Shown piece after piece: positions 6,285-32,788 of a stretch of DNA of 47,089 bases. The notes under the pieces are model-generated. The model was not told the origin of the DNA. It saw only the letters and a program-made list of their open reading frames with translations, and ran no database searches. A program made the position numbers and the translations under genes. The DNA comes from a virus, in IMG/VR virus record IMGVR_UViG_3300031702_000010, positions 1-47,089 of that record; one strand, 5' to 3'. Position 1 is the first letter of the stretch, and each line of letters starts with the position of its first letter.

Positions 6285-6317
6285 GCCACTGAATTAAATA
6301 CATTATCAAAAATAATT

Positions 6318-6347: not shown

Positions 6348-6392
6348 GTCAAAATTAGTTGCTACCCTAACAGTTCTCTATAAGCCGCACTC

Positions 6393-10255: not shown

Positions 10256-10281
10256 GTAATTCCATAAACAGAGGATCTACT

Positions 10282-15899: not shown

Positions 15900-15930
15900 G
15901 TTCATGACAACCAATTCTAAGGAGCCTGAA

Positions 15931-16164
15931 ATGTACGATGAGACATACGAGCATGGCTACGACGATTTCTTCAAGGGTGACCTTAAATGCCCTTACCGAG
16001 ACCACCGCCATCGTGAGTGGCAGCGGGGCTTTGATGCAGGATACAACGACAACTTGAGAGGCCGATATGTACAAACTATTCGATCCCAAACTCCACGAAC
16101 AAACCGACGTTCCAGCGAGGGAGGCAGCAAAGGCCTTCTGGCAGGAGCAGGGCTACAAGTGTGA
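15931..16164 (+). CDS. RMF/CrpP-like small protein, 77 aa
   Basis: MYDETYEHGYDDFFKGDLKC continues PYRDHRHREWQRGFDAGYND. The spacing (A/E-xGY-xG--G---CPY-----R--W--G---GY) matches ribosome modulation factor, which dimerises 70S ribosomes in stationary phase, and the related CrpP family. GGAGCCTGAA precedes the ATG. About 33 C-terminal residues overlap the next gene in another frame (98 bases), and this tail is not part of the family. A role in controlling host ribosomes is attractive but is inference. Confidence 0.68.
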   Translation: MYDETYEHGYDDFFKGDLKCPYRDHRHREWQRGFDAGYNDNLRGRYVQTIRSQTPRTNRRSSEGGSKGLLAGAGLQV

Positions 16165-16489: not shown

Positions 16490-16496
16490 GTCCAGC

Positions 16497-16516
16497 TTAT
16501 GACCCTCCAGTCATAA
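16497..16516 (+). promoter_or_regulatory. Hairpin upstream of the phoH terminator
   Basis: TTATGAC-CCTCCA-GTCATAA is a perfect 7-bp stem just after the nuclease stop. GGTCATA at 16544-16550 could pair with it instead, so alternative folds exist. Confidence 0.55.
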
Positions 16517-16517
16517 A

Positions 16518-16557
16518 CAGCCAATATGATCTAAAACTCATAAGGTCATATTGGCTG
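16518..16557 (+). promoter_or_regulatory. 12-bp hairpin overlapping the terminator
   Basis: CAGCCAATATGA (16518-16529) and TCATATTGGCTG (16546-16557) form a perfect 12-bp stem. Its last three bases (CTG) are also the first of the terminator stem, so the two structures compete. Confidence 0.65.
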
Positions 16558-16580
16558 CACTTAAACGGTGCAGTCTTTTT
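16555..16580 (+). terminator. Rho-independent terminator before phoH
   Basis: CTGCAC (16555-16560) and GTGCAG (16568-16573) form the stem, followed by TCTTTTT. It overlaps the -35 region of the phoH promoter and the preceding hairpin. Confidence 0.8.
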
Positions 16581-16623
16581 AGTTAAGTGGTATAATAGAG
16601 GTAGGCAACACGCCACCTACTAA
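16579..16623 (+). promoter_or_regulatory. phoH promoter flanked by paired half-sites
   Basis: TTAGTTAAGTGG (16579-16590), TGGTATAAT (extended -10, TATAAT at 16591-16596) and CCACCTACTAA (16613-16623). The two half-sites are an inverted pair 22 bases apart around the -10 box. The same spacing occurs at 28543-28583. The -35 region is poor, as expected for an extended -10 promoter. Confidence 0.75.
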
Positions 16624-16645
16624 ACCCTTAACAGTCTGGTATTTC

Positions 16646-17362
16646 ATGAGCAAGAATGCAAAACGATACACCCGCCGCACGAAGCGTGAAGACGATACAT
16701 TATCACCTACACCTAAAGTTAAGAAGTCCATAGAACTGGTTCCCAAAACGTACAACCAGAAGATCTACGCAAATGCACTTAACACGGACGACCTTATCTT
16801 TGTGACAGGCTGTGCAGGGACGGGTAAGACTTACATGGCTGCAACCCAGGCTGCTAAGATGTACTACAATGGTCAGATTGAGAAGATCATCCTGTCACGT
16901 CCTAACGTAGCTGCTGACGGCAAAGGTATTGGCTTTTTCAAAGGCACATTGCAGGAAAAGATGGCCCCGTGGGCTGCACCCCTAGTTGATGTGCTGAAGA
17001 AGCATTTGGGGCCTGTTAAGGTAGACATGATGATCAAGGATGAGGATATCATCATTGAGCCATTCTCTACCATGCGAGGTAAGTCATTTGAGAACTCATT
17101 CGTGATCTTAGATGAAGCCCAGAACACTACTTACATAGAGCTAAAGATGTTCCTGACCCGCATCGGTGAAAACACTAAAACTGTAGTAAACGGTGACATA
17201 GCCCAGACGGACCTGGCCGAACACTCAGGGCTTAATCGCATCATCAGGATCACCAAAGCCCAGATGCTGCCTTTCCCTGTGGTTGAAATGACTGTGGACG
17301 ACATTGTGCGGTCAGACATTTGTGCAACCTGGATCAAGGCATTTATGGAGGCTGAAGGATAA
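16646..17362 (+). CDS. phoH: PhoH-like ATPase, 238 aa
   Basis: A P-loop ATPase of the PhoH family, common in marine phages, with RNA-related function proposed but unproven. After a basic N-terminus (KRYTRRTKRED) come Walker A GCAGTGKTYMA (residues 55-65), SRPNVAADGKGIGFFKGTLQ, MRGKSFENSFVILDEAQNTT (Walker B DEAQN) and VVNGDIAQTDL. The length of 238 residues is typical of the phage form without extra domains. It has its own promoter; its stop overlaps the next ATG. The ribosome-binding site is weak. Confidence 0.95.
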   Translation: MSKNAKRYTRRTKREDDTLSPTPKVKKSIELVPKTYNQKIYANALNTDDLIFVTGCAGTGKTYMAATQAAKMYYNGQIEKIILSRPNVAADGKGIGFFKGTLQEKMAPWAAPLVDVLKKHLGPVKVDMMIKDEDIIIEPFSTMRGKSFENSFVILDEAQNTTYIELKMFLTRIGENTKTVVNGDIAQTDLAEHSGLNRIIRITKAQMLPFPVVEMTVDDIVRSDICATWIKAFMEAEG

Positions 17363-17532
17363 TGTTAGCAATAGTAGTATACCTGTGGACCTGTATCTTG
17401 TTAACAATGGTAATGGAGCCAGCAGAAGGTAGTGGCAGCATTAGATGGGCAATAACTCTTGCATTGTGGCCGCTATTAACCGCCGTGTTAATCATGGCAG
17501 AGTTCTTTGATCCACCTTCCTCTGAAGAATAA
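17362..17532 (+). CDS. Small membrane protein, 56 aa
   Basis: MLAIVVYLWTCILLTMVMEP, then a short polar loop AEGSGSIR, then WAITLALWPLLTAVLIMAEF and an acidic end. Two membrane helices are clear. The ATG overlaps the phoH TAA (TAATG), so it is translated with phoH. No family is recognised. Confidence 0.65.
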   Translation: MLAIVVYLWTCILLTMVMEPAEGSGSIRWAITLALWPLLTAVLIMAEFFDPPSSEE

Positions 17533-17565
17533 CAAAAAGCCCCGCAGTGCTTGACTACGAGGCTT
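17533..17565 (-). terminator. Terminator for the leftward structural operon
   Basis: On the minus strand AAGCCTCG and CGGGGCTT form an 8-bp stem with a 13-base loop, followed by TTTTTGTT. It stops transcripts from the internal virion genes. Confidence 0.72.
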
Positions 17566-17586
17566 ACAGATACTATTTAATTCATA

Positions 17587-17611
17587 GAAGCTCTTGGTCG
17601 GGCTTCCTTTT
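17587..17611 (+). terminator. Terminator 1 for the rightward early operon
   Basis: GAAGCTC-TTGGTC-GGGCTTC is a 7-bp stem followed by CTTTT, just past the leftward terminator. Confidence 0.7.
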
Positions 17612-17617
17612 AAGTTA

Positions 17618-17653
17618 GGTCTCTACGGGTGATTCCGTAGGGGCCTTTCTTTT
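17618..17653 (+). terminator. Terminator 2 for the rightward early operon
   Basis: GGTCTCTACGG and CCGTAGGGGCC form an 11-bp stem with two G-U pairs around GTGATT, followed by TTTCTTTT. It ends 3 bases before the stop of the converging virion gene. Confidence 0.85.
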
Positions 17654-17655
17654 GT

Positions 17656-20600
17656 CTACTGTCCGCCACCGCCGAAGAGGTTACCCATCTGCTCTGGTAT
17701 CGATGTTACAGCATCTTTTACTTTACCATACGTGGCCTCCGCAAAAGCAGCCGTATCAACTGCAGCTTCTATTACAGTGTATACTTCCCCTGTCTGAACA
17801 TCCTTTCGAGAGAGAAGACCTGCTTTGACCATTAAATCAATTGTCATGTTGATAGTTTCTGGGCTGACCCTGACCTTACCTATACCTACGGTGTTTCTAC
17901 TAGGCTCTAGGCTTTTCAGAACTTCCAATGCCATTGGGGCATCCGCCACAATCATATCCATTGCGTTTGCATAAGAATTTGTGATGTCCATCTTGTCTGC
18001 AGCTAAGTTAGATAGCGCACGGATCTTCGTACCTGTCTTGTTAAGTGGGCCAACGGTCAGAAAGATTAGCCGGTTAACTGCACCTTGGTAGGCCTGCAAT
18101 TCAGGAGTACCAGAACCGCCCTGTATCGTCTTAGAGTTAAGGGCTGCACCCTGGTCACCCCCTAGCGTCAGTATACGGTCCAGGACTTCTGCAAGATCAG
18201 GATCATCCTTCAATAAGGCCCGACCTGATGCAGCTATATTGGGGTTATTCTCTAGGATCTTCCTGATTTTGGAGGGATTAAACATCCTATCACCAGTGGT
18301 TGTCTCCTGTGAGGTAAACATTAGCTGGCGGAGTTCTTCCAGATACTGCTTCTTTAGTCCCCCAACAATAATAGGGTTGTTGTTAGATTTCTCCAGCAGT
18401 TCTGTTATGTCATCAGCACCTTTGGGACTATTAATAAGCCCCCGCAACGACCCTTCAGGGTTCACCGTAGCAGCATCACCCGTAGAATTAGTGAAGCGAC
18501 GTACCATCTTGGAGAGTGCGTCCTCCTGCATCGCAGTCTGCTGCTCAAGCAACGTGGCAAGAAATTCATCGTTTCCTGCCGAAGAGTTCTGTGCATTCTG
18601 AAGCTTTGCAATAAATCCATCCAACTCTGCAGCAAGTATAGGCATGTTGCCCCGAAGCCTGTCGCTATAACCCCGTACATTTTGTGATATCACCGATACG
18701 TCAATGTTCTGAAGGCCATCCAGTTGGATTTTCTCATAAGTATCTTGAAGGATCTTGCTGACAATGTACTCTTCCATTGCCTCCGAAGTAGCATCTCCCA
18801 CAGTATCATCGATGTCTAGTAATGACTTCAACTGCGCTACATCCCTGCGAGTACCGTTGTCTAGGACTGCTTCAACCTGTGCTTCAGATTGATTGCCTCG
18901 GTTAATAGCCTCGTTTCGTGTGGATTTGAAGGTAGCAGAACTGTCCGCTCCAGGGCCGTCTCTAAGAAGGGGGGCGAAGGTTTTCGTATAGTAGTCTGAA
19001 GCTTCCCTAGCGGCGGCTGCAGCCTCTGGGCTTCCGTTTTCAGCTACATAATCAACCTGCCCATCGATGTTCTTAATAATACCACGAATACGGATGCCTA
19101 CGCCGCCCTCACCTTTGCTAAAGGCGTCTTCAGCCATCTGAGAAAGTTTAGGCCGCACGTCCGCATACAGGACTTTGAAATCCACACCGCCATCAAGTAG
19201 CTCTTCAGCTAACTCTTCTGGAGTGAGGTCAAATGTTCTCACACTAACAGCGCCTAGTGCATCAACAGTTTCTTCTGTGCGTTCTGTTTTATATGCGGAT
19301 CGAATAGTAGCAATCAGGCGGCGATTAAGAACGTCCATGCCCTCTACGCTAAAGGCATTTGAGTCTTTAGTTGCAGCAGCCACAGCCTCGCCAAAGCCAA
19401 TTATATCAAACTCAGCACCCTCAGGGATAGCATCATACAAGTCGTTCTTAGTTGCATTCATGCTTTCAACTTTAGCCATAACGGTCTGGGCTATTTCCGC
19501 CCTACGCTGTGCTGGAAGGGCAGAGACCTCGGAAGGACTGACTTTAGCAATGTCAGAAATAAGTGTCCCGTACTGTGTGTCTGCCAGCACCCTCTGTACC
19601 GCTCCCTCATCGCCTGCAGCTATGGCCACTTGTGTGTCTTCAATCATGCGGGACTGGGCATCTAAACGGGCTGTATTTGTCCCGATAATCTCATCGGCTA
19701 CATTATCAGAAGTGATCCCCTCAGGTAATGCGGCGTCTCTCTTTCCCGTTAGTACAGTATCTATCTGTTGTGGAACTTGCCCTGTTGCTTCTGTAAGCGC
19801 ATTGTTTTCAAGGCCTTTTCCTGCCCGAATACCTGCACTCATCTTTCTAGAAGTAGCCACTGTTCCTGGAGCTAGTTTATCTCCTACCTCCAAGGCAGAA
19901 AATAGATCCATTTTAATGGGGGATATGCTACCGGCGTCGTCTAAGATTATCGTTTGGTTTTCGTTAAGGATACCAATAATTCTTTTACGGGCGTCCTCAA
20001 AGGAAGACTTAGTAGCATTCGCTTCCACCTTCGATAGCTCTCGTATAATGTTTTGAATAGCCCGCTCTCGTTGGGAGATTGGGCTTTCTGCTAACCTGCC
20101 TATCGTCCCGCTTATTCCTACTTCACCTACAAACTTAGCGGTATTGGCTACAGCTTTAACACCAGTACCAAAGAGACCTGCAGCGACCACACTGTCCACC
20201 ATAATGTTAAGTTTAGCCGCTATAACTTGGTCGGCTTGGTCGTCGTTAGGGTTGACTTCGAAAGCCCTGAGAAATGCCGGTGTATCTGAGTCCGTGCCTG
20301 CTACGATACCGGCTTCGCCGCCAATGCCTGCACGAATTGATGCAGGATTTATCTTGGATGTAGGAGTGGCTATTTTAGATAAGGCCTTCGACACAGCGTC
20401 CACTGCGGGCTGACCCACCTTACGCCATGTTTCTGATCCAGAAAGGGGCTTCATAAATGCACCCACAGTCTTTTCAGCCCCAGCAATAACCGCACGACCA
20501 GTAAAGAAGGAAGTAACCAGACCCGCAGTTTCACCTACGACAGCATCTACCGCAGAGCTTCCTGAAGAGCTTCTGGGTATTGTTTGGGCGTACTCAGTTA

Positions 20601-21288
20601 GGTTGGTATCTAAGCCAACTAAGTCTGCGCCTGTGTCAATTAGTGCTGCAGCAGTTTCTATCGTGTTAGTAGAGGCATCCACCACACCGTCTACTAACAG
20701 ACCACCTCTGTTGGTGCCTGCTGGCATATCAGCAATAAGGTCAGGATCAATTGCCTCGGCTGCGTTTGATAGTAAACCATCCGAATATGGGATAGGATTA
20801 CCGGCTATTGTTGGTTTCATTATTTTGTAAGACTTCCCTGACACTGGGTCATCAAACACAAGTCCCCAAGTACTTTCTCTAGTGTTCTCATGAACTGCAT
20901 AGGAATTGTAGATAGCCCATGCGGAATAGTCCTGTCCTTTAGGCGTACCTTCTGTTGTGTCGTCTGAATTACCCACAAGATAGCCCGTGTACATATCAGA
21001 GTTAGGTGGGGAAATATTTAGTTTACTTCCATCTCCCTTTGGGGGAACTAAAGAAGGCCGCTCACCTTCAATGGTGTCGATCTCTTGTTGAGTGAAGCCT
21101 GCGGCCAGACGATCTTCGTTGACCTCATCCTTAGCAGCAGTGTCACTAAAGATCATACTGTCGTAGTCGTTGCGGCGTTCTTCTGAGATCTCAGGGGTAT
21201 CTGGTTCGACAGGGACCATAAACGGATTATCTTTGTCAGAGGGGGCTATAGTAGGTTTACTGACGAGAAAGGGGTTTCCATTTTCCAT
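17656..21288 (-). CDS. Large internal virion protein, 1210 aa
   Basis: A very long, mostly helical, Ala- and Asp-rich protein beginning MENGNPFLVSKPTIAPSDKD with a repeated acidic -NPF- theme. Hydrophobic patches such as VVAAGLFGTGVKAVANTAKF lie near residue 370. No enzyme motif is evident. Its size, order after the 964-residue lysozyme-like protein and place at the end of the structural operon fit the ejected core proteins of T7-like phages (gp16 type). Its ATG overlaps the preceding stop (TAATG). Convergent terminators follow. Confidence 0.75.
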   Translation of the reverse strand: MENGNPFLVSKPTIAPSDKDNPFMVPVEPDTPEISEERRNDYDSMIFSDTAAKDEVNEDRLAAGFTQQEIDTIEGERPSLVPPKGDGSKLNISPPNSDMYTGYLVGNSDDTTEGTPKGQDYSAWAIYNSYAVHENTRESTWGLVFDDPVSGKSYKIMKPTIAGNPIPYSDGLLSNAAEAIDPDLIADMPAGTNRGGLLVDGVVDASTNTIETAAALIDTGADLVGLDTNLTEYAQTIPRSSSGSSAVDAVVGETAGLVTSFFTGRAVIAGAEKTVGAFMKPLSGSETWRKVGQPAVDAVSKALSKIATPTSKINPASIRAGIGGEAGIVAGTDSDTPAFLRAFEVNPNDDQADQVIAAKLNIMVDSVVAAGLFGTGVKAVANTAKFVGEVGISGTIGRLAESPISQRERAIQNIIRELSKVEANATKSSFEDARKRIIGILNENQTIILDDAGSISPIKMDLFSALEVGDKLAPGTVATSRKMSAGIRAGKGLENNALTEATGQVPQQIDTVLTGKRDAALPEGITSDNVADEIIGTNTARLDAQSRMIEDTQVAIAAGDEGAVQRVLADTQYGTLISDIAKVSPSEVSALPAQRRAEIAQTVMAKVESMNATKNDLYDAIPEGAEFDIIGFGEAVAAATKDSNAFSVEGMDVLNRRLIATIRSAYKTERTEETVDALGAVSVRTFDLTPEELAEELLDGGVDFKVLYADVRPKLSQMAEDAFSKGEGGVGIRIRGIIKNIDGQVDYVAENGSPEAAAAAREASDYYTKTFAPLLRDGPGADSSATFKSTRNEAINRGNQSEAQVEAVLDNGTRRDVAQLKSLLDIDDTVGDATSEAMEEYIVSKILQDTYEKIQLDGLQNIDVSVISQNVRGYSDRLRGNMPILAAELDGFIAKLQNAQNSSAGNDEFLATLLEQQTAMQEDALSKMVRRFTNSTGDAATVNPEGSLRGLINSPKGADDITELLEKSNNNPIIVGGLKKQYLEELRQLMFTSQETTTGDRMFNPSKIRKILENNPNIAASGRALLKDDPDLAEVLDRILTLGGDQGAALNSKTIQGGSGTPELQAYQGAVNRLIFLTVGPLNKTGTKIRALSNLAADKMDITNSYANAMDMIVADAPMALEVLKSLEPSRNTVGIGKVRVSPETINMTIDLMVKAGLLSRKDVQTGEVYTVIEAAVDTAAFAEATYGKVKDAVTSIPEQMGNLFGGGGQ

Positions 21289-24182
21289 TAGTTTTCCTCC
21301 GCTGTGCTAGATAACAGCCGGTCGTAAGCTTCCTGTCCGTATGTCTCTATGTAGTATCTCTGTATCTCTGGGCTATCAGGATTTGCTCTCATAAGTGCGT
21401 TTGCTTCCGCAATAGGCATGGTTGCAACATTTCCTGCATCTTCAGGTGCTGCTCCACTGCCACCGGAGAAGAAGGCATAAGCATCAGTTAACTGCAGGTT
21501 GTTACGGTCTGCGACAATCTCACCAAAGGTTCGTGGTGCGGTGATTGGGGAGAAACCATAGTCCCTTTTGAATCCGGTAATAGCAGGGAGGTTAACTAGG
21601 GCATCAGCTTTACCACCGTACCCAGCGGTCTGAAGGTTCATGTATGTTGTAATACCTTTAATGAACGTACCGCCCTGTTTACTTGCTTTAACTGTCTTGA
21701 GCAGGTTTGCGAAGTCTTTGTTAGACAGTGCGTTACCCGTCTGACCCGCCATTGCACCGGCGTTGAATGCCAAGGCCAGGACGGTGGATTCAAACAAGTT
21801 GGTTTTAGCAGCAAGTTTGCCTACAACTCCATTTGCTACGCCGCTTAGGAAGGACGTATCCATGTTGTTTGTTTCAAGAGCCGCTCTAATATCGGCCTCT
21901 GTCGTAACACCATCTGGATTATCTTCCATCAGGCCTTCAACAACAGAAAGTATTGACTTTGTGCCTTCAGCAGCGTTGGTCAACCATACGGCCACGCTAC
22001 CACCAGCATTTAGTAACCGTTCATCTTCGTCCACTAAGTATACAAGTGTCCTAGCCTGGATCAACGACTGAGATAGAGCAACGCCGTAAGCACCTACTTT
22101 TGCTGCCTCTGTTTGTACTTGTGTAGGTATTTTTTCTAGGGCTTTAGTTTGTAGGCCGCTAAGGTTCGTAGCGTTGATAGGCTTACCCGTAGCATCTTTA
22201 TACGTGCCATCCATTGATCTGATTGCAACCCCCCGACTTTTGCCACCATCTTCATCTGTAATAATGACATCCGTAGCGACACCCCCAACACCACCTGCTT
22301 TAATGTAACTCAGTCGGGCATCTTCAATTTCGTACTCACGTAGAAGATTGGTTAGATAACCTACTATTTCTTCACCGCCACCGTTTTGAATTGCAATATT
22401 AAGCTGCTGTCGTGTTGAGTCAGTGCTTTTAGCTGCTGCCATTACTGCAGCATTATCGGCGTTTGCCTCTAGGGCTTCACGAATAGTTACCTCGGAATCC
22501 AGGTGGGTAAAGCTAGTTTCAGGCGCACCCTCTGCAATGGCTGCGTCCTTAATTTCCCTGAGTTCTGCTGGGGTTTTACCAAGAAGCGCACTTGGTTTAA
22601 TCAGTTCAACCCATTCAGGCGCATCTTCACGGGCCGCTAACGCTGCAAGTGCCTGTGCCTGAACGACAGGATTATTGGTTATAGCAGCAAGTGCCTGAAG
22701 TTGGTTATCCGGTAGTTTGTAGATTTCAAAATCAGGGGTAGGAATGCTATTAAGTGCAGCCTGCGCCCTATCTTTTACCTCTTGATAATTGCTAGTGGCT
22801 ATAACAGCGAGTAGCTGATTTTCACCCATAGCAGTTACATCAAGATTAAGGTTTTTCGCATCAATCTCGGCTTGATCTGCATTCTGTTTGGCAGCAATCT
22901 CTGCATCCAACAAATCAATCTTGTCAGGGCTAGCCCCAGATTCCACAGCCATCCGTCTGTAGAACTCCAACTTGTATTTCGAAGCTCCTTCGTAGTTGTC
23001 AGTATCTGCCCAAGAACCTGGCTTTTCTGCTTGAAGATAGGCCCGACGTGCCTGGTCTTCGAGAGGCACTCTTTTATCATCTGGAATGCTAGGGTCCAGT
23101 GCCAATGCGTTAGTAATCTGGTCGCCTGTCATGGCAAGGTACTTATCAATGTCGAATGGCTTACCTTTAGGAGTAATACCAAATGCTTCTTCTGTGCGGT
23201 CAACTGGAGTTACGCTAGATCCGCTCTCTCCTGCGTTAGCAAACTTACTTGCGTAGTCAGCCAAGGATGTACGGTTAGCGGTCTTAACAGACGTGTCGGA
23301 TGGGTTGCTTGCACCGTTAGTCTGTAGATACTTACGCATACCGCCGTTACCACCGAGGTGGGCCATAGCCACAAGGGACGCACGGGTGAGCGTAGTGCCG
23401 TTCATAGTCTGACCAATGTATTTCTCTAGGTTGTTGTTATCGATGAACTTATCTATGTCATCGAAGTGCCAATCAGCGATCTTCTCCTGTTCTTCTTCAG
23501 ACAGGTTCTTGTGACTAGCTGCTGTGTAGTTAGTACCAAACTCATTGTTGTAACCTGCAAGTCGGGCATCACCCATCTGATAAAACCCAGAATGCAGACG
23601 GCCATCTTTTGTGGTATTTGTGGCGTTAGATATGTTGGCACTTTCACCTGTGCGCAGGGCTTCACGTACACCTGATGTGCCTGACATGTCCCGCATCTCT
23701 TGTGCAAATGCGGCATCGTTCTGCGCTTGTGCGGAAGCAGGGATTTCACCACGATTTCTATCGAAGGCTTTAGCACCAGGCGTATAAGTGAAGCGACCGT
23801 CCTGATATGCGGCAGTTAGGTCGGCATTGGTGGCTTCAACACCCAGCGTATTGATCCGCCCAATAATGTCAGAAATGACAGAGGAGTTGGTTGGATCAAG
23901 GCCATTGTTCGAGGCTAGTGTGCGTGCCTGTTCCATAGTTTTCTTCTGTAACTTATCGGCCTCTCTGCGCTCTGCATTCTCAAGCTTAGTAAGCTCACGC
24001 TGGTCCGTCTCTTCTAGAAGAACTCTGCGACGGGTTTCTGCTTTCTCTGCAGCAGCATCGTCCATCCAAGACTTAGCCACAACACTTGCAAACCCATTAA
24101 ACGCAGATCCGAAGTTATCCGATTTAGGCGCATAGCTGATACTGCCATTTGAAACGCCTTTCTGTACATCACGCCAACCCAT
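21288..24182 (-). CDS. Internal virion protein with lysozyme-like domain, 964 aa
   Basis: The start at 24182 follows GGAGACTACCG and gives MGWRDVQKGVSNGSISYAPK. A coiled helical part (about 45-110, ETRRRVLLEETDQRELTKLE) precedes a domain with LHSGFYQMGDARLAGYNNEF (about 200-220) and LVAMAHLGGNGGMRKYLQTN (about 290). This resembles lytic transglycosylase or lysozyme folds used to locally open peptidoglycan at ejection. The rest is helical and acidic. It lies between small virion genes and the 1210-residue protein, as expected of ejection proteins. Confidence 0.72.
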   Translation of the reverse strand: MGWRDVQKGVSNGSISYAPKSDNFGSAFNGFASVVAKSWMDDAAAEKAETRRRVLLEETDQRELTKLENAERREADKLQKKTMEQARTLASNNGLDPTNSSVISDIIGRINTLGVEATNADLTAAYQDGRFTYTPGAKAFDRNRGEIPASAQAQNDAAFAQEMRDMSGTSGVREALRTGESANISNATNTTKDGRLHSGFYQMGDARLAGYNNEFGTNYTAASHKNLSEEEQEKIADWHFDDIDKFIDNNNLEKYIGQTMNGTTLTRASLVAMAHLGGNGGMRKYLQTNGASNPSDTSVKTANRTSLADYASKFANAGESGSSVTPVDRTEEAFGITPKGKPFDIDKYLAMTGDQITNALALDPSIPDDKRVPLEDQARRAYLQAEKPGSWADTDNYEGASKYKLEFYRRMAVESGASPDKIDLLDAEIAAKQNADQAEIDAKNLNLDVTAMGENQLLAVIATSNYQEVKDRAQAALNSIPTPDFEIYKLPDNQLQALAAITNNPVVQAQALAALAAREDAPEWVELIKPSALLGKTPAELREIKDAAIAEGAPETSFTHLDSEVTIREALEANADNAAVMAAAKSTDSTRQQLNIAIQNGGGEEIVGYLTNLLREYEIEDARLSYIKAGGVGGVATDVIITDEDGGKSRGVAIRSMDGTYKDATGKPINATNLSGLQTKALEKIPTQVQTEAAKVGAYGVALSQSLIQARTLVYLVDEDERLLNAGGSVAVWLTNAAEGTKSILSVVEGLMEDNPDGVTTEADIRAALETNNMDTSFLSGVANGVVGKLAAKTNLFESTVLALAFNAGAMAGQTGNALSNKDFANLLKTVKASKQGGTFIKGITTYMNLQTAGYGGKADALVNLPAITGFKRDYGFSPITAPRTFGEIVADRNNLQLTDAYAFFSGGSGAAPEDAGNVATMPIAEANALMRANPDSPEIQRYYIETYGQEAYDRLLSSTAEEN

Positions 24183-24732
24183 CGGTAGTCTCCTCTTCAT
24201 CAGTAATGTCACCAAGCATAGCGGACTGTACGTCATCGCTAGCGGCTATAGTATTGGTTTGACCGCCTATACCCATCAACCCATCTAGTGGCTCTGTGGG
24301 GGCCTCTACAGGCTTCTCAGTGGCATCTTCATTGTCACCATCAATGATGTCTAGGCTCAGACGGAGTGAGGTAGGCGTAATACGAACACGATCTTTGTCA
24401 TCGACGCCCATCTCATGCTTAATACCGCTGTCTGTCGCAATGATGGAGATATACCGTGCGATAGGCCCTGCAATCAGGATAGCTAAATCAATAGCCATCT
24501 TCCCACGACTAATAGCCTGCAGCAGGAGTGTGGCAACTACAGTGGTAACATGTGCGTCTATCTCAAGTAGGGAGAAGATCAGTTCCTGTTGCACAGGCTC
24601 CTTGATCCGCCCTAACATGTAATCCACACCCTCATCGTAATCAACAATGTCAGGTGGGCGATGCCATGCGTAGTTCTTAGTGTCGGAGGTGTAGTTAGCA
24701 CCAGGCGTTGGCATATTAGGAAGCTTGGCCAT
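24169..24732 (-). CDS. Probable virion protein, 187 aa
   Basis: MAKLPNMPTPGANYTSDTKN, then AWHRPPDIVDYDEGVDYMLG, then a hydrophobic helix pair (VTTVVATLLLQAISRGKMAI and LAILIAGPIARYISIIATDS) and an acidic end. GGAGAC stands 7 bases before the ATG. It overlaps its neighbours on both sides. No enzyme motif is seen. A membrane-interacting part of the ejection apparatus is plausible from its hydrophobic helices and neighbours. Confidence 0.62.
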   Translation of the reverse strand: MAKLPNMPTPGANYTSDTKNYAWHRPPDIVDYDEGVDYMLGRIKEPVQQELIFSLLEIDAHVTTVVATLLLQAISRGKMAIDLAILIAGPIARYISIIATDSGIKHEMGVDDKDRVRITPTSLRLSLDIIDGDNEDATEKPVEAPTEPLDGLMGIGGQTNTIAASDDVQSAMLGDITDEEETTDGLA

Positions 24733-24919
24733 CTACCGTCTCCTTCTTAGGTTTGGACTTCTTCTGGGGCGCATCAGCCTCTAGAAAGGATGCCTCCATC
24801 TCGTCAAAGTAATCGGGGCTAAAGAATACCTCCCCACCACGTTCCTCAACGACTGCGGTAGGTAGCTTACCTGCTACGAATGCCTTGACGGACTTCTTAA
24901 CTGCGTCTTCAAACTTCAT
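24716..24919 (-). CDS. Small hypothetical virion-region protein, 67 aa
   Basis: MKFEDAVKKSVKAFVAGKLP is followed by VFFSPDYFDEMEASFLEADA and a Lys-rich end. The ATG overlaps the stop of the 783-residue gene (ATGA) and its 3' end overlaps the next gene by 17 bases. No family is recognised. Confidence 0.62.
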   Translation of the reverse strand: MKFEDAVKKSVKAFVAGKLPTAVVEERGGEVFFSPDYFDEMEASFLEADAPQKKSKPKKETVDGQAS

Positions 24920-27267
24920 TGGAGCATCCCGTAATTAACCATCAGATAACCGCCAACCCCTGCACGAACTGCATCGGGGTGGGTCTCCGCTACTTCTTGA
25001 GCAATAACGCCAGAGGTGGTGTTAACATCCAACTTCAGGGCCTTAGCCTTGTCGTTCCAATCCCATGTATAATAGCGGATGCCCTTCACTGTTTCGGTGT
25101 GCTGGATATTGTCTTTTAGACGCCTATCCGAACTCAGCCATGCAGCGCCTAGTTTAAATATACCGTCCAAAAGACCGTTGCTTTTGGCTGGCTGTGACGC
25201 CTGGGCTTGCATCTGGGCAGCTAGGATAGTGGCATCACGATCAGCTTCGCCATTCCAACCCTTAAAGATGAAGTCCAGCATGTTATCTACACGGTCCCAT
25301 GTACGGTTCAGGGCTTCTGTGGAGATATCCAAGGTGTTCTGTACGTCCGTGGACGCAGCCTCAAACATATTATCCGCATTTTTAACCGTGACTTGCTGAC
25401 GCCATGCAGCATTGGCGGTGTCGATGTTGTATTGCATGCTAGAGTAAAACTGCTGACGACGGTCTTCCATTGCAGCGTTGAACTCAGCGGTGCTGTTGAT
25501 TTCCCCAGCATTAAACTGCTTCATGCTATTGATCTGTTGGCTGTTCTGTAACTCCACCGTGGTGGATAACTGATCATAGAATTTCTCGAAGTCATTTGCG
25601 GTTTCAGCCGTGAACAGACGACTGGAATTTACTGCGGATTGGTCATTAAACAGGGCGTCTACTGATAGCTGCGTGTTGATAATCTCAGCTTGCTGCTCAT
25701 TGTTTAGGTTAGCCATATCCATTTGCAGAAACGACTTAGCATTCTGTACCGCTGCAGCCTGACGGGCATCTAAGTTGGCCATCTCGAAGTTAGACATGAC
25801 GTTGGCTTTGTTGATGATAGACTGCTGCCGGTTATCAAGGTTTTTAATAGTCAGCGTCTGGAAAAATGAGGCTTCGTCTTTAGCAATGCCTAGAGTAGCT
25901 TCCATGATGGCATTCGACATAGCCGCAGTTGCTGCAGTCCCTGTAATGCCAGAGAAGGCCATCGTACGGGAAACCTCACGGGATACGCCTTGCGCCCACG
26001 CAGGGATCTTGGGGTTACCATCGCCGTCTTTGAACTCAGCAGAGATAATATTCATTTGGCCTAAGATCGTGGCCTTGCTGTCCGTGTAGTTACCTTCTCC
26101 TAGCTTCTGGGCGAGTATTTTACCTGAGGCTGTGGAGGTATCAATCAAGGTGGAAATCCCCTGAGAGGCATAATCATTCAGGGATTCACCTAAATCACTA
26201 ATGGAGCCGTCGGCATTCACGCCAGTAGCTGCACCCTGCATATCAATTTGTTCAGCTACAACGGTACTGTTATCAGTGACAGCGCCTACGGCAGCAGCAG
26301 CTACATCAAGGTTGTCTGAAACGGTAGACGCCTCGTAGGAGGTTACATCGGCAGTCGCAAGCGGTGTGGTTGTAGATGCACTTCCTGCAGTGGCCGCAGT
26401 GATATTAGGGGTGTCCCCTAAGGAAAACCGTTCATCCGAACCATCAATATTTGTACCAGAGGCGTCCGCATCGATTACTGGCGTAAGATCTGCCAGTTTA
26501 ATGCCACGACTATCCAGCCAGGCCTGTGGGTCAGCCATCAAACTGGCAATCTGTTCGTCACTCTCAATCATGCCTGCAGCAGAGGCCATCTCCAGAACAC
26601 GCTCTGCGGAGTATAATCCGCCATCGACGCCTTCAAGGCCTGCAGCAGCACCTGTACCCACAGATACCGCATTTGATGCTGCTTCCTTCATAATGGCATC
26701 TGCATCTGCACTATTACCCAAGGCCCGTTGCTCACTAGAGGCACGTTCGTAGCCCGTCATGCCGTCAGGGCCTTGCATGGAAAGGGTGTCGGTGACGGTG
26801 TTGCCATCTTTTGAAATGGTGACCTCGTACGGAAGACCTAGCATGTTGTAGGAGTAGGTTAGGCCTGCTGTACCATCTTTGTTTGTAGCGGTGTACGTTT
26901 GGCGACCATTTACTACAGCGCCCTTATCTTTAGTGGGGTTGATGCCTGTAGCCCAACCCATAACTTTGCCAACTATGGTTAGTGCAGGGCTAACTACCAG
27001 ACCTGCCGCCTGTTTAACCGCAGTTGGCGCAACACCTTTAACTTTAGCCGCTGCCTGTTTAACCGCAGAGTAGTTTACCCTTGTGCCTGCTTCAGCAGCC
27101 CCCGCAGTATTTGCAGCCGAGTTGCCTGTTACTGTGTTGCTTATAGAAGCGATACCACCGACATCGTTATCTGGGTTGGAGTCATTATCGTAGCTGTCAC
27201 CAGAGGCACCAGGACCACCTCCATCAAACATGTCGCCTAGTCCACTATAACCACCAAAAATACTCAT
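24916..27267 (-). CDS. Virion protein with C-terminal S74 chaperone domain, 783 aa
   Basis: The N-terminus is Gly- and Asp-rich (MSIFGGYSGLGDMFDGGGPG); the middle is helical and rich in Asn, Gln and Ala (NLDARQAAAVQNAKSFLQMD), like an internal or tail-needle protein. The end carries SSDRRLKDNIQHTETVKGIR, then TTSGVIAQEVAETHPDAV, the S74 intramolecular chaperone signature (S-D-x-R-x-K and GVIAQE). S74 domains trim themselves after the parent protein has trimerised. It follows the spanin genes with a 4-base overlap. Its exact place in the virion is uncertain. Confidence 0.7.
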   Translation of the reverse strand: MSIFGGYSGLGDMFDGGGPGASGDSYDNDSNPDNDVGGIASISNTVTGNSAANTAGAAEAGTRVNYSAVKQAAAKVKGVAPTAVKQAAGLVVSPALTIVGKVMGWATGINPTKDKGAVVNGRQTYTATNKDGTAGLTYSYNMLGLPYEVTISKDGNTVTDTLSMQGPDGMTGYERASSEQRALGNSADADAIMKEAASNAVSVGTGAAAGLEGVDGGLYSAERVLEMASAAGMIESDEQIASLMADPQAWLDSRGIKLADLTPVIDADASGTNIDGSDERFSLGDTPNITAATAGSASTTTPLATADVTSYEASTVSDNLDVAAAAVGAVTDNSTVVAEQIDMQGAATGVNADGSISDLGESLNDYASQGISTLIDTSTASGKILAQKLGEGNYTDSKATILGQMNIISAEFKDGDGNPKIPAWAQGVSREVSRTMAFSGITGTAATAAMSNAIMEATLGIAKDEASFFQTLTIKNLDNRQQSIINKANVMSNFEMANLDARQAAAVQNAKSFLQMDMANLNNEQQAEIINTQLSVDALFNDQSAVNSSRLFTAETANDFEKFYDQLSTTVELQNSQQINSMKQFNAGEINSTAEFNAAMEDRRQQFYSSMQYNIDTANAAWRQQVTVKNADNMFEAASTDVQNTLDISTEALNRTWDRVDNMLDFIFKGWNGEADRDATILAAQMQAQASQPAKSNGLLDGIFKLGAAWLSSDRRLKDNIQHTETVKGIRYYTWDWNDKAKALKLDVNTTSGVIAQEVAETHPDAVRAGVGGYLMVNYGMLQ

Positions 27268-27515
27268 CTGATTTTATCCCTTCCAATTGCACAGCGCCGA
27301 ACTTTGTCCAGCAGATTTGAATAGTCTGAAAGGGCCTCAGGCAATGCCGTAGCAGTGGAGGGTAGGCTTTCAATTTCATTAGCAAGTTGATTGTTGAAGT
27401 CTTCGTCATACTGCTTGTGTGCAGGACAGTAGACTTCTAGCTTAGTATTATAATCCGTTTGACCGCAGCCGATTAACAAGAGTGTCAGGGCTGACGGGAT
27501 CAGTATCGTCTTCAT
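27264..27515 (-). CDS. o-Spanin-like lipoprotein (Rz1 type), 83 aa
   Basis: MKTILIPSALTLLLIGCGQT is a lipoprotein signal with lipobox LIGC, so the mature protein would be an outer-membrane lipoprotein. The mature part is helical (DYSNLLDKVRRCAIGR). It overlaps the 3' end of the membrane gene 27448-27687 in another frame by 68 bases, the classical nested Rz/Rz1 layout. Together the pair would disrupt the outer membrane at lysis. Confidence 0.8.
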   Translation of the reverse strand: MKTILIPSALTLLLIGCGQTDYNTKLEVYCPAHKQYDEDFNNQLANEIESLPSTATALPEALSDYSNLLDKVRRCAIGRDKIR

Positions 27516-27687
27516 CTGATAACGCCTTGTAAAAGTCTGCTACCTCATTCGAAAGAACGAGGTCATTAGCTAGTTTGTTGGCCTTAGCCTTGTCCTTGCC
27601 CGCCTTACGACCAAAGAGGTATATGAGGGGCATAAGAAGAGCTAAGAGGCCTAGTATGGTTGTCTGAAGCTTGCTGAAGATTCCCAT
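27448..27687 (-). CDS. i-Spanin-like inner membrane protein (Rz type), 79 aa
   Basis: The start at 27687 overlaps the endolysin TGA (TGATGG). MGIFSKLQTTILGLLALLMP leads a single membrane helix (LLALLMPLIYLFG), then a charged helix (KAGKDKAKANKLANDLVLSN). It is short for an i-spanin, but topology, order after the endolysin and the embedded o-spanin support the call. Confidence 0.76.
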   Translation of the reverse strand: MGIFSKLQTTILGLLALLMPLIYLFGRKAGKDKAKANKLANDLVLSNEVADFYKALSDEDDTDPVSPDTLVNRLRSNGL

Positions 27688-28418
27688 CAGCGTTCGCCGT
27701 TTGTGTGGTCCGACCAACGTGCATATGCTGCTAGGGATATCCCGCCAACCGCACATACCAAGAAGATAGTCTTCAGGTTGGTGGAGTATGGAACAAGATC
27801 CTGAAGCCTCTGGGTAATCTCACCTAAGACGGTGGCGACACCAGCAACCCCTGCACCAGTCATAGTACGGCTCTTACGAAGGGATTTAGCAGCCGCAGTG
27901 GCAGGCTTCTGGGCCATCTTGCTGCCACCCTCATCCGAAGGGAGTTTAGTGTCTGAGGAGAATACTGCAGCCTCTGCGGAACGGCGGCGGGTGAGACCTG
28001 TGAGGACAGTCATCTTACCATCTACACGGGCTTTATTCCAACGCAGCAACTGTGCAGGGACTTCCGAGTATAGGCCTCGGTTTAGTTTTTTCAGTAGCGT
28101 GGATGAACGAAAGTTGCCTTCGCCCAAGTTGTACACGAAGCTAGTCAATGCATCGTATTGGGCCTGCGACAGAGGTACATGGACGTAACGCTTAACTACG
28201 GACCCATACTCTTCTATATCAGCTACAAGCCGCTCTTCAGCCTCTTCAACGGACATTGTCGCACCAGAGCGGATACCTTTTGTGGTGCCGTACCCGATAG
28301 TCCACTTACCAGCAGGGCAACGATACGCCGCCACCCGTCCATCTTTGCGGACCTTATGTAGTCCTTCAAAGCGTTTAACTAGGTTTAGTCCATCAGGGGA
28401 AATTGCGGTGGGTTGCAT
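27687..28418 (-). CDS. Endolysin, GH24 lysozyme with C-terminal membrane segment, 243 aa
   Basis: It cleaves peptidoglycan glycan strands at lysis. GLNLVKRFEGLHKVRKDGRV holds the catalytic Glu (about 18), CPAGKWTIGYGTT the C-x5-T part (Cys 34, Thr 40), and ALTSFVYNLGEGNFRSSTLL the conserved second lobe. Unlike most, it continues past the enzyme domain (about residue 155) with a basic linker (SLRKSRTMTGAGVAGVATVL) and a membrane helix TIFLVCAVGGISLAAYARW. No separate holin is evident, so this helix might serve membrane attachment. It is the first gene after the 28.6-kb promoter. Confidence 0.9.
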   Translation of the reverse strand: MQPTAISPDGLNLVKRFEGLHKVRKDGRVAAYRCPAGKWTIGYGTTKGIRSGATMSVEEAEERLVADIEEYGSVVKRYVHVPLSQAQYDALTSFVYNLGEGNFRSSTLLKKLNRGLYSEVPAQLLRWNKARVDGKMTVLTGLTRRRSAEAAVFSSDTKLPSDEGGSKMAQKPATAAAKSLRKSRTMTGAGVAGVATVLGEITQRLQDLVPYSTNLKTIFLVCAVGGISLAAYARWSDHTNGER

Positions 28419-28542
28419 TAGGTTACCTTGTTATTGCGTAAGGGGGGCGAGCCGTTGGACAGTGTGGTCTTTGCATGTATGGAAGCGAACCCAGTCCCGC
28501 AGTATAATATCCGGCTTGTGGGAGGGGTTAATGCACCAGACT

Positions 28543-28596
28543 GTAAGTGGCGTTAGTAGTGGGTTAATTATACCACCTACTAGGTGTCATTAGCAA
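28543..28596 (-). promoter_or_regulatory. Lysis/internal-protein promoter with paired half-sites
   Basis: On the minus strand TGGTATAAT (TATAAT at 28567-28572) is an extended -10, with TTGCTA (28591-28596) as a possible -35 at 18 bases. In plus orientation, GTAAGTGG (28543-28550), 22 bases and CCACCTACTAG (28573-28583) form the same inverted pair as at 16579-16623. It would drive the endolysin, spanins and internal virion proteins. The remainder of 28419-28604 holds no gene. Confidence 0.75.
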
Positions 28597-28604: not shown

Positions 28605-29795
28605 TTACGTGATTTCTTTCAGAACACGGCCTGTCAATTTGAACAAAGCAGCCCGAAAGTATGCCATATTGTAGGCAAACTCATTCTTGCAGGACTGAAC
28701 AAAGTATTGGCCTTCGAGGTACATGCAGCTACCTGCGCAGAGTTGCACCACGGGACAGGCTAAACACTCTGGGCGATCTGAGAAGTGTGTGGCGGTGTCT
28801 AGCTCAATGTTGTCGAAGTCATCAACATGCCCAATCTTGTGCTTGCCTTTAGCACCTGTGTTTTGGCAGGTCTGGACGTTACCTTTGAGGTCAACAGCAA
28901 GCTGATCTGGGCGATCCATACCGCACTTCTGTCCAACAGCCGTAATAGGGCGTTCCTCGTATAGAGATTGGATGAAGCGGTCTGCCTTATGCGTGACACC
29001 TGTGTTCTCACTGGTGGCTAAATAGTAGAACATCTCGTTTGAAAGCTCTGTAAGTTCGTCCTTCTGAATACCACCAGAGCCAAGTAGGGTGCCTGCGTCA
29101 TACACATTTACAACCCCCTCAAGCCCTACCTGAACTGGGAAGTCAAAGTATCCCTGAATCCAGTCTTCAATAGCTTTGAAGTCAAAGTTACCCCGTGTCA
29201 GAACACAGTTGAAAGACATGTTACCTTGCCGCACACGGGCGAGTTCTGTGATCCACTTCATCTTCTCAGGGTCTTGGAAAGGATCGGGACCACGGTTTGC
29301 CACCTGCCCCGGACCATCATGTGAAATGGCGATGCCAATGTCATGCTCAACAATGAAGTCAATCTTCTCTTGATTCAAGACTGATCCGTTAGTGATGATT
29401 GTGACTGAGGCGTTAGGAAACCGCTTCTTGATGGTTGGAACTAGCACTTTAAGTTTGGGCCAGTAAACAAAAGGCTCACCACCCCAGAACTCAAGTTTCT
29501 CAGGCTCACCCTCAATCCATGTATCCAACTGGGCAATGAACTGCTGTGCGTCGTCTAGCTTTGATACATCATCGTTGACGATCTCAAGGCTCTGTAGGCA
29601 GTAGGAGCAAGAGTAGTTACAGGCCAGACCCATTTGAACCTTTAAGACACGGGGTGCTTTGTCTTTATGGCGGGCATGTTTGTCGAATATCCCAAACTTC
29701 TTAGGGGCAGTAGGCAACCCCTCAAGTTTATTTGCGAGATGGTCGTAGTCTAGGGCAATGACGTCTCCGTCTGGGGCTTCAAGATGCAGTTTCAA
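28605..29795 (-). CDS. Radical SAM protein with SPASM domain, 396 aa
   Basis: A probable peptide or protein-modifying radical enzyme. GLACNYSCSYCLQS holds CxxxCxxC (Cys 59, 63, 66) for the SAM-binding Fe-S cluster, followed by FWGGEP (about 105). The SPASM domain is complete: Cys 291, then G-x4-C (Cys 310), then C-x2-C-x5-C-x3-C (344, 347, 353, 357) and Cys 369. This is the pattern of anaerobic sulfatase maturases and RiPP maturases. The start is a TTG overlapping the oxygenase stop, with AGAGGA upstream. It ends an operon with two oxygenases and Cys-tailed small proteins. Confidence 0.94.
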   Translation of the reverse strand: MKLHLEAPDGDVIALDYDHLANKLEGLPTAPKKFGIFDKHARHKDKAPRVLKVQMGLACNYSCSYCLQSLEIVNDDVSKLDDAQQFIAQLDTWIEGEPEKLEFWGGEPFVYWPKLKVLVPTIKKRFPNASVTIITNGSVLNQEKIDFIVEHDIGIAISHDGPGQVANRGPDPFQDPEKMKWITELARVRQGNMSFNCVLTRGNFDFKAIEDWIQGYFDFPVQVGLEGVVNVYDAGTLLGSGGIQKDELTELSNEMFYYLATSENTGVTHKADRFIQSLYEERPITAVGQKCGMDRPDQLAVDLKGNVQTCQNTGAKGKHKIGHVDDFDNIELDTATHFSDRPECLACPVVQLCAGSCMYLEGQYFVQSCKNEFAYNMAYFRAALFKLTGRVLKEIT

Positions 29796-30403
29796 TCGAA
29801 ATGTTCCTCTTGGAATTCGTCAGGAATGTTGAGCCGAAAGTTAGCAACAACCTGAACATGGAGTGAATCACCCCTGTATGGGTGCTGGTTATGAGGTATC
29901 CAAGAAGGGAACAGAACAAGTAAGCCTGCTCTTGGATTGATGGAGTAGCCGGGCCTATCTTCAAAAGGTAGCCGAGCTTGGTCCGCATATCGTGATGGGT
30001 CTTCTAGGACAAAACGTGGATCACCAACTGAGTTGATTGGCTGACCTTCGCCACCGCCAGATAGGAATAGAACGGCGGTGACATCACCTTCACGACTGTC
30101 ACAGTGGGTACTGATGTGTGCGCCCTTTTCAATTAGTAGCGCACGGTTCTCACAGTAATCTAGGTCAAGGAACTCTGCACCTTCAGGGCCAAGGTAATGC
30201 CCTACGCAGTTGCGCATCATGTCCTTCAATTCGTCGTCTAGGAAGTGCCTAACCCGACGCTCTATGGCATTCATCATGACATCCCCAGAAGGGCGATCAG
30301 CCTTGGCGTAAGCTTCCGCAATCAACTCAGGGGCGTCCAATTCATAGAAAGCCACAGTGGTGGGCCATAAGGACACACGGGAGGTATTAACTGAATGCAC
30401 CAT
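29792..30403 (-). CDS. Fe(II)/2-oxoglutarate oxygenase, prolyl-hydroxylase-like, 203 aa
   Basis: The double-stranded beta-helix motifs are HISTHCDSREGDVTAVLFLS (H100-x-D102) and NPRAGLLVLFPSWIPHNQHP (distal His 171). In related proteins an Arg that binds 2-oxoglutarate stands about 11 residues after that His; here the aligned position is His 182, with Arg 177 nearby, so the cofactor site may differ. The fold resembles prolyl 4-hydroxylases and TIGR02466-type proteins. Its ATG overlaps the stop of a peptide with eight prolines and a Cys tail, which is a natural candidate substrate. Confidence 0.85.
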   Translation of the reverse strand: MVHSVNTSRVSLWPTTVAFYELDAPELIAEAYAKADRPSGDVMMNAIERRVRHFLDDELKDMMRNCVGHYLGPEGAEFLDLDYCENRALLIEKGAHISTHCDSREGDVTAVLFLSGGGEGQPINSVGDPRFVLEDPSRYADQARLPFEDRPGYSINPRAGLLVLFPSWIPHNQHPYRGDSLHVQVVANFRLNIPDEFQEEHFD

Positions 30404-30696
30404 CAGCAGTAGCAGGCACAGTTGCAGTTAGCCGGGGGTGGTGGTGGGGGCGGTGGGACGTAGCAGTTGTAGTAGTACCGAGTTCGGGTACGGGTCAACG
30501 ATGTAGGGCTGGTGATATTCCAAACTGCGGAACCGTAGCCTGTGAGGTAGTACCCAGAACCTGTCGTCGTGTTCACATCATTAAACAGCATCGTGGTGCC
30601 TACAGTGGCCCCGTTGGTGGGCTTACCTGTGAGACGTGTCCAGTCTACTTTCCCGTTGTCGTCTATTACGGTTGTTGAGCCTTGTTTATACGCCAT
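30403..30696 (-). CDS. Small virion-like protein with Pro8 and NCNCACYC tail, 97 aa
   Basis: MAYKQGSTTVIDDNGKVDWT is a module shared with two neighbours, resembling short segments of phage tail-fibre proteins. A beta-rich middle (GSGYYLTGYGSAVWNITSP) leads to YYYNCYV, eight prolines and the tail ANCNCACYC, in which four cysteines alternate with single residues. The Cys tail matches that of the 91-residue protein. Codons overlap the gene before (TAATG) and the oxygenase after (TGATG). A substrate for the adjacent modifying enzymes is proposed; no match is claimed. Confidence 0.8.
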   Translation of the reverse strand: MAYKQGSTTVIDDNGKVDWTRLTGKPTNGATVGTTMLFNDVNTTTGSGYYLTGYGSAVWNITSPTSLTRTRTRYYYNCYVPPPPPPPPANCNCACYC

Positions 30697-30923
30697 TAGA
30701 TTGTTGTCCTTGTGTATACGTCTCTGTACGTGGACCCTGTAAATTCAATGCCAGTAAGCGTGTACCCTGTGTAGCTAGGACCAGCCCCCACGGTGACGTA
30801 AGACGCAGAACCGAGAGAAAAGTTTGTGTTGGCGGGGACGAAGGTAGGCACACCAGTGACTTTCGCCATAGGGATGTTGCCAGAAGCGTCGATGACTACG
30901 GTTGACCCAATTTTATAAGCCAT
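30696..30923 (-). CDS. Small virion-like protein without Cys tail, 75 aa
   Basis: MAYKIGSTVVIDASGNIPMA carries the same N-terminal module as its two neighbours, and the rest (GSASYVTVGAGPSYTGYTL) is beta-rich. It ends YRDVYTRTTI, close to YQDVYRVTI of the 91-residue protein, but stops exactly where the Cys tail would begin. The ATG at 30923 overlaps the preceding TGA by one base. It looks like a paralogue lacking the modifiable tail and so a natural comparison for the hypothesis. Confidence 0.8.
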   Translation of the reverse strand: MAYKIGSTVVIDASGNIPMAKVTGVPTFVPANTNFSLGSASYVTVGAGPSYTGYTLTGIEFTGSTYRDVYTRTTI

Positions 30924-31198
30924 CAGCAGTAACACACGCAGTTGCAGTTTGAAGGTGGGGCGGATGTGCAGTTACTTATCGTCACTCGATACACATCTTG
31001 GTAGGAGGTCGAAGTATTAAACTTCATGCCAACGTGGGAGGCGGCTGAATAGACGTTACCCCCACCAACGTAGTAAGTAGAGTTAGCACCCTTTACGAGT
31101 TCTGTGTCTTTGACAGGAATACCTACGTTAGACAGTCTGTCCCACGCAATATTACCACTGTTGTCGATAACTGTCGTTGAGCCTACTTTATAAGCCAT
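30923..31198 (-). CDS. Small virion-like protein with NCNCVCYC tail, 91 aa
   Basis: MAYKVGSTTVIDNSGNIAWD leads the shared module; a beta-rich part (YYVGGGNVYSAASHVGMKFN) ends in YQDVYRVTISNC, then TSAPPSNCNCVCYC. The layout N-C, short linker with prolines, N-C-N-C-x-C-Y-C equals that of the 97-residue protein. GAGG lies upstream of the ATG, which overlaps the oxygenase stop by 11 bases. A small tail component or a maturase substrate is proposed. Confidence 0.8.
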   Translation of the reverse strand: MAYKVGSTTVIDNSGNIAWDRLSNVGIPVKDTELVKGANSTYYVGGGNVYSAASHVGMKFNTSTSYQDVYRVTISNCTSAPPSNCNCVCYC

Positions 31199-31886
31199 TT
31201 TTAATCCTCACTTTCTTCTGTCGGTTAGGGAGGAGCATGTCACATTGTATTGGGATACAGACCCGTTCAGACCCTTGAAAAAAGGTACTGTCGTGAGGCA
31301 CATGGCCTTCAAAAACCACCATTGATCCAACACGGGGAACAACCTGATACCAAGCCCCTGTGTGGAAGTTGGGGTTGAGGTTATTCCAGAGGCGGTTGCC
31401 CTTACCTGATGGATCGTAGAACCTCAAAGCCCCTGAGTGCAGAGGGGTGTCTTCGTAGCCCTCATCAAGGTCCACAACAGGATAATAGGTACACACCAAG
31501 TCGGCTCTCAGGTGGGAGTGTGTGAAGATACCGACGTTCTCTCCGCCAGACCGTTGCTGGTAAAACGTCTCAGCCACCATATCAATGTCGTAGCTATTGA
31601 CGTACCCGTAGGCCGCCAACAGATACTCGTTCACAGACTGGCGCACCATATCAACTAAGCAGGCCACTGTGGGGTGATCCGCCTTATCAGACAGTAAGTT
31701 ATGGCGCACATGACCAAAGTGGTTGGTCTTATTGCCAAGGTTTAGGAGGTTGTCGTCGTCCGTTACTTCGTGAAACTTTGAGTCCTCACGGGCTAAGTTT
31801 CCTAAAGTGTTGTTGAAAGCATCAGCCATATCCCACGTCTTGTGCATTACGAAGTTAGGAAAGATCGCCTGAAGGTTAGATGACAT
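31188..31886 (-). CDS. Fe(II)/2-oxoglutarate oxygenase, TIGR02466-like, 232 aa
   Basis: The iron ligands fit SGGENVGIFTHSHLRADLVC (H-x-H) and GSMVVFEGHVPHDSTFFQGS (distal His), with the Arg of SERVCIPIQCDM ten residues after it as expected for 2-oxoglutarate binding. GALRFYDPSG and YYPVVDLDEG match the core strands. The ATG at 31886 overlaps the stop of the upstream 297-residue gene; an in-frame TTG further up has no better support. It directly precedes the first Cys-tailed protein and so is linked to it by translation. Confidence 0.82.
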   Translation of the reverse strand: MSSNLQAIFPNFVMHKTWDMADAFNNTLGNLAREDSKFHEVTDDDNLLNLGNKTNHFGHVRHNLLSDKADHPTVACLVDMVRQSVNEYLLAAYGYVNSYDIDMVAETFYQQRSGGENVGIFTHSHLRADLVCTYYPVVDLDEGYEDTPLHSGALRFYDPSGKGNRLWNNLNPNFHTGAWYQVVPRVGSMVVFEGHVPHDSTFFQGSERVCIPIQCDMLLPNRQKKVRIKNGL

Positions 31887-32769: not shown

Positions 32770-32788
32770 TTGTATGGTCCTTTGTGGA

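Follow-up and report, generated by a model that had tools for sequence, protein, structure and literature searches.

The stretch of DNA analyzed here, referred to as the window, comes from a marine phage and corresponds to a linear virus contig in IMG/VR, 47,089 bases long. By its portal, terminase, capsid, DNA polymerase, primase, helicase and integrase genes and by their order, the phage is assigned to the CRP-3/CRP-235 group of HMO-2011-type podophages. Homologs of the portal, terminase, capsid, DNA polymerase A, primase and helicase genes lie in the order typical of the group, with identities to the CRP phages of 67-75% for the portal, 67-71% for TerL and 58-63% for the DNA polymerase, and the tyrosine integrase is 44-58% identical to those of CRP-235, CRP-3 and CRP-212. 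The HMO-2011-type phages form one of the dominant groups of phages in the sea (PMC9038755). Window positions 1-2400 match the right end of CRP-235 (52.7 kb), and the record, which falls some 6 kb short of its relatives in length and has gene calls based on open reading frames, is by this comparison a permuted and incomplete genome, with several kb absent between the two ends of the window. A tRNA 3' end at about 4913-4952 is shared with CRP-235 and CRP-3, in which it is nearly identical; comparison with CRP-3, which integrates in a host tRNA-Met gene (PMC6918029), identifies it as tRNA-Met. This tRNA end is likely to be the attachment site of the phage, adjoining a primase promoter that bears one of the sites described below. 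A scan of 84,980 bacterial and archaeal genomes for prophages recovered no relatives of the portal protein.

Several other features of the window deserve mention. The gene at 10246-11127, directly after the DNA polymerase, encodes a protein with the C-terminal residues FENDEIPF, which resemble the acidic tail of single-strand DNA-binding (SSB) proteins, and evolves faster than its neighbors (20-47% identity). A small protein encoded at 15904-16164 has a weak match, short of the curated Pfam threshold, to the ribosome modulation factor (RMF, E 3e-4). A phoH cassette (16490-17655) and a radical-SAM/2OG-Fe(II)-oxygenase cassette (28605-32829) each adjoin one of the two paired sites discussed below; neither has a counterpart in the 19 related genomes compared, and no relatives of PhoH were found in viral contigs. 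A second intergenic repeat, AACCGACCAAATG, recurs at about 353, 777, 1003 and 1936, right before several minus-strand genes of the left arm; AACCGACC occurs five times in intergenic and once in coding DNA of the window, and the repeat is also enriched in the related genome G006. It is possibly a shared translation-start leader.

A dispersed, imperfectly palindromic site

The initial annotation had drawn attention to recurrent TTAGTnnGTGG/CCACnnACTAA half-sites, twice paired at the same spacing around an extended -10, and had read them as the operator of a phage repressor or activator. Both pairs are real: GTGG at 16587-16590 faces CCAC at 16613-16616, and GTGG at 28547-28550 faces CCAC at 28573-28576, with exactly 22 bases enclosed in each case, and the enclosed stretch runs into GTGGTATAAT on the plus strand in the first pair and on the minus strand in the second. 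The single sites reported at 1060, 2632, 5003, 6393, 10229, 46789 and 47074 are likewise real, all intergenic and all among the matches of a positional matrix. It is the definition of the unit that had to be amended. The literal word TTAGTnnGTGG occurs at chance level (15 instances with at most one mismatch against 10.8 ± 3.0 expected), whereas the unit is enriched as CCACYTA/TARGTGG around a TAnnTA center. The consensus is GCCACYTAnnTARGTGGC, an imperfect palindrome of which the window copies usually present one strong and one weak half.

Intergenic DNA makes up 6.7% of the window, and a de novo ranking of 6-mers by their intergenic/coding counts placed two pieces of the site at the top, TAACTA (13/17) and CACTTA (12/16). 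The half-site nCACYTA is found 20 times in intergenic against 38 times in coding DNA of the window (p=5e-10). A matrix built from the originally listed window sites had all of its top 15 matches in intergenic DNA, including those at 39554 and 6289 on the minus strand and 39173 on the plus strand, which lay outside the training set. As this matrix was trained on the window itself, we also scanned the window with a matrix derived from other phages only; its top seven matches were all intergenic, as were nine of the top 10 and 12 of the top 15 (p ~2e-11). An equal frequency of the motif in coding and intergenic DNA had been named beforehand as the outcome that would speak against operators; the matrix tests instead reveal a clear bias toward intergenic DNA, which favors them. 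Beyond the sites originally listed, the searches added those at about 6290, 39170 and 39557, and probably also 2129 and 5091. The window holds approximately 14 copies, nearly all at predicted promoters.

The chance level of the literal word, together with the ease with which AT-rich palindromes are overfitted in intergenic DNA, raises the question of whether the motif is an artefact of chance or base composition. A free expectation-maximization search with a loose prior drifted to AT-rich words, an unrestricted palindrome search overfitted, and a restricted one gave mixed motifs; hence, the per-genome palindrome matrices are used only as description and not as proof. Against such an artefact stand the held-out matrix test, the conservation of position in relatives and the dinucleotide shuffles: palindromic TAnnTA cores number 113 in the intergenic DNA of 18 genomes against 58 ± 7.6 in shuffled sequence (z=7.2). 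The sites are real, and we regard an origin by chance as scarcely credible.

Placement of the sites at promoters

We predicted promoters by eye and with a simple consensus. On the left arm, an intergenic minus-strand copy (ACGCCACCCAACTAAGGT, 1057-1074) ranks second with the matrix from other phages, and a plus-strand copy (AAGCCACCCAACTAGTTA, 2629-2646) lies in the predicted promoter region of the integrase gene (2680), upstream of that gene and just 3' of a TTGACA. The minus-strand copy at 4999-5016 (about 5010) adjoins an extended -10 (TGGCATAAT) upstream of the primase gene. A plus-strand copy (AAGCCACTGAATTAAATA, 6283-6300) falls at the end of a small gene terminating at 6284, and a minus-strand one (ACGCCACTTAGTAGAGTG, 6388-6405), which ranks first with the matrix from other phages, lies upstream of the helicase gene (6423). 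The promoter of the SSB-like gene at 10246 holds a plus-strand copy (ACGCCACTTAACAATGCC, 10233-10250) in the spacer between TTGACT and CATATT, a position kept in relatives.

The two pairs have a common layout, with their units 38 bp apart center to center (16582/16620 and 28542/28580) around an extended -10. Upstream of phoH, the first, minus-strand member (16576-16593, about 16587) abuts the extended -10 TATAAT, and the second, on the plus strand (16610-16627), lies 22 bases past the first GTGG. At the promoter of the lysozyme operon, the proximal member (GACACCTAGTAGGTGG, 28571-28590, minus strand) occupies the spacer between TTGCTA and TATAAT, and the distal one (28536-28553, minus strand) lies downstream of the -10. 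Among the structural genes, a minus-strand copy (39162-39179) is found upstream of the capsid gene, and a plus-strand copy (ACGACACTTAATTAACGT, 39548-39565), with comparable sites in CRP-738, CRP-212 and CRP-3, lies at the end of a gene at 39559-40350 upstream of the capsid region. At the right end, a plus-strand copy (ACGCCACTTAATTAACTA, 46786-46803) stands just upstream of the -35 of the late promoter of the terminase operon (TTGACT-18-TACAAT), and another (CCACCACTTAGTTAGTGG, 47071-47088, plus strand, about 47074) abuts the TATAAT of the promoter of a small DUF1127 gene. The sites overlap predicted promoters, a few (about 6290, 39170) being without an evident one, and they occur in both orientations relative to the neighboring genes.

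Since several copies run into a TATAAT, as at GTGGTATAAT, they might be conceived as promoter elements, either extended -10 motifs or promoters of a phage RNA polymerase, rather than operators. This appears quite improbable: the copies stand in both orientations relative to the gene, tend to palindromy and are also placed within spacers and upstream of the -35. The hallmarks of promoters for a single-subunit phage RNA polymerase, namely a fixed orientation and a polymerase gene, are missing, with no RNA polymerase gene among the open reading frames scanned.

A second alternative is that the protein bound is an activator or dual regulator coded by the phage, for which the copies directly upstream of the -35 would be at the position of a class II activator. 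In many loci of the group, the site at the late promoter does abut TTGAC or sit just upstream of it, and for the late promoter activation is a live rival. Taken over the whole set of sites, it is an unlikely account: -35 and -10 boxes close to consensus and separated by 17-18 bp are already present at the late promoters, and a protein could hardly activate by contact from within the spacer or from the -10, the positions of many other sites. We favor repression over activation because a site lies inside the -35/-10 spacer and is conserved there in relatives.

Palindromic sites placed in the spacers of promoters for early, lysis and late genes are best read as operators of a repressor. This bears out the earlier view of the sites as operators, with a single, roughly palindromic unit recurring at early and late promoters alike. 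From the sites, their intergenic bias, promoter position, conservation and lineage-specific bases, all read from sequence, we infer the binding of one sequence-specific regulator, which is probably, with moderate confidence, a phage-coded repressor of lytic genes in the integrated state. Such a repressor would occupy the imperfect palindrome within the -35/-10 spacer, or abutting the -35 or -10, and thereby block the host RNA polymerase. It would keep the primase, helicase, SSB-like, lysis, capsid, terminase and DUF1127 genes off in the integrated phage and would also time them in lytic growth. At phoH and the lysis operon, a site stands on either side of the -10, about 38 bp from its partner, and binding to the two could be cooperative. 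Binding as a dimer is less than certain, as many of the copies in the window are good in one half only.

Conservation and divergence in related phages

In the window, CRP-235, CRP-738 and CRP-3, the promoter that immediately follows the DNA polymerase gene is arranged alike, with the site in its -35/-10 spacer; CRP-212 has a site at the equivalent place, its -35 falling outside the stretch examined. In 19 metagenomic loci, this promoter reads TTGACT (TTGAAT in one), followed by GCCACCTAACTGT or a variant and then by TACAAT or similar, with sites such as GATGCCACCTAACTGTAG. The late-operon promoter carries sites in many loci, as does the promoter of the small DUF1127 gene that immediately precedes this operon. 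Double sites similar to the window pairs, their inner halves separated by about 20-21 bases, occur at the DUF1127 promoters of CRP-235 and of three metagenomic loci (L058, L064 and L089). CRP-1 (locus L207), a more distant HMO-2011-type phage, has an intergenic word of its own, ATAGTTATA/ATATATAG, also found on its DUF1127 promoter, which suggests a system of this kind that uses a different site.

The core CTTAnnTAAG recurs across the phage group, and the outer bases of the site vary by lineage. The outer base of intergenic nCACYTA is A 6, C 11, G 1 and T 2 times in the window, A 2, C 1, G 7 and T 2 times in CRP-3, and A 12, C 2, G 1 and T 1 times in CRP-212; C thus typifies the window and the related genome G005, G typifies CRP-3, and A typifies CRP-212 and G008. 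CRP-235, CRP-3 and CRP-212 share the host strain FZCC0040, and yet their outer bases differ (permutation p=3.5e-4, a value that is too small inasmuch as palindromes can be counted on both strands). A matrix of the window type works on the window, G005, G006 and G002 but fails on CRP-738, where only one of the top 12 matches is intergenic.

These data bear on whether a host transcription factor, whose regulon the phages adopted, might read the sites. The recurrence of the core across the group would fit such a factor, as would the want of a regulator gene among the phage open reading frames scanned. The differing outer bases in three phages of one host strain and the failure of the window-type matrix on CRP-738 speak against it, and we deem it rather unlikely. 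It is this divergence of specificity among phages of a single host strain that argues for a phage-coded regulator.

Candidate regulators and comparable systems

The observation that no repressor gene is recognizable in the window holds: most of its open reading frames were scanned with Pfam, PHROGs or both, and no repressor family emerged. The same scans of selected right-arm open reading frames of the CRP phages also yielded no repressor. The repressor gene may lie within the missing part of the genome. Two small proteins, both conserved in the group and encoded at the right end, which is rich in operator-like sites, are leads, and only leads, for the binding protein. The first is the 50-residue DUF1127 protein (46882-47034, minus strand; Pfam DUF1127, 3.5e-9), a candidate for either the regulator or a main target. 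Its AlphaFold2 model, of modest confidence (pLDDT 72), has helices at residues 2-24, 27-32 and 37-49, which could form a helix-turn-helix. The second is a 78-residue protein encoded by the first gene of the late operon (46480-46716, minus strand), which comes first in that operon in most of the relatives that were examined and shares the conserved start INLIYIRAAI...TG (model pLDDT 73); no known family or fold was found for it. A PDB fold search with both models returned no match better than E ~4.

In about 30 loci of the group, a DUF1127 gene immediately precedes the late operon; its promoter mostly bears an operator-like site, and often another is found close to the ribosome-binding site. 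Elsewhere, the reported roles of DUF1127 proteins are in RNA binding or membrane association (PMC11707872). Comparison by eye of the putative DUF1127 recognition helix with the operator type disclosed no clean code, and the gene families common to operator-matched phages singled out no one gene. We advance only tentatively, as a possibility on the doubtful side, that the DUF1127 protein (or the 78-residue protein) is a miniature helix-turn-helix repressor, autoregulated via the operator on its own promoter and defining immunity groups.

Each of the known systems of dispersed or palindromic operators resembles these sites in part. The lambda CI and Cro proteins act on palindromic operators that overlap promoters and are clustered at two control regions; the window sites are likewise palindromic and promoter-overlapping but are scattered over late structural promoters, and no CI/Cro-type gene was recognized among the window open reading frames scanned. 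The C1 repressor of P1 acts on dispersed, asymmetric operators that overlap many promoters, some as inverted pairs; the window sites share the dispersal, the overlap with promoters and the occasional inverted pairing but differ in the asymmetry and sequence of the P1 operators, and relatives of C1 were sought here only by the Pfam and PHROGs scans.

The Cluster A mycobacteriophages possess dispersed operators/stoperators with a similar but distinct consensus in each lineage (PMC6550527, PMC9283540). The window phage and its relatives resemble L5 and Cluster A in a temperate way of life, which CRP-3 has and the window phage probably shares, in carrying many copies genome-wide at promoters and in short intergenic spaces, and, by the outer-base counts and k-mer tables, in having a related consensus specific to each lineage. 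However, an L5 site spans 13 bp, is asymmetric and binds a monomer, and L5 has more than 20 of them, whereas those of the window are imperfect palindromes centered on TAnnTA and number about 14. The L5 sites stand mostly in one orientation with transcription and mostly away from promoters, while both orientations occur here, mostly at predicted promoters. L5 codes for a helix-turn-helix repressor; Pfam and PHROGs recognized none in the scanned open reading frames of this incomplete record, the missing part of which may carry one. As neither the asymmetric site nor the single orientation is found, we do not classify the window system with the Cluster A stoperators. The words 'repressor' and 'promoter' are absent from two accounts of the HMO-2011-type phages and the CRP-3 group (PMC9038755, PMC6918029), and thus the sites appear undescribed there.

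The sites have the look of an on/off switch of a whole phage group. At least CRP-3 integrates, and the sites bear on how HMO-2011-type phages choose and hold the dormant state. They furnish a DNA bait for the putative repressor, predict promoters for most operons and offer a test for immunity groups, which, among phages of one host, would parallel those of the mycobacteriophages. Were the DUF1127 protein to prove the regulator, this family would gain a role in sequence-specific DNA binding and would define immunity groups in a very abundant group of marine phages.
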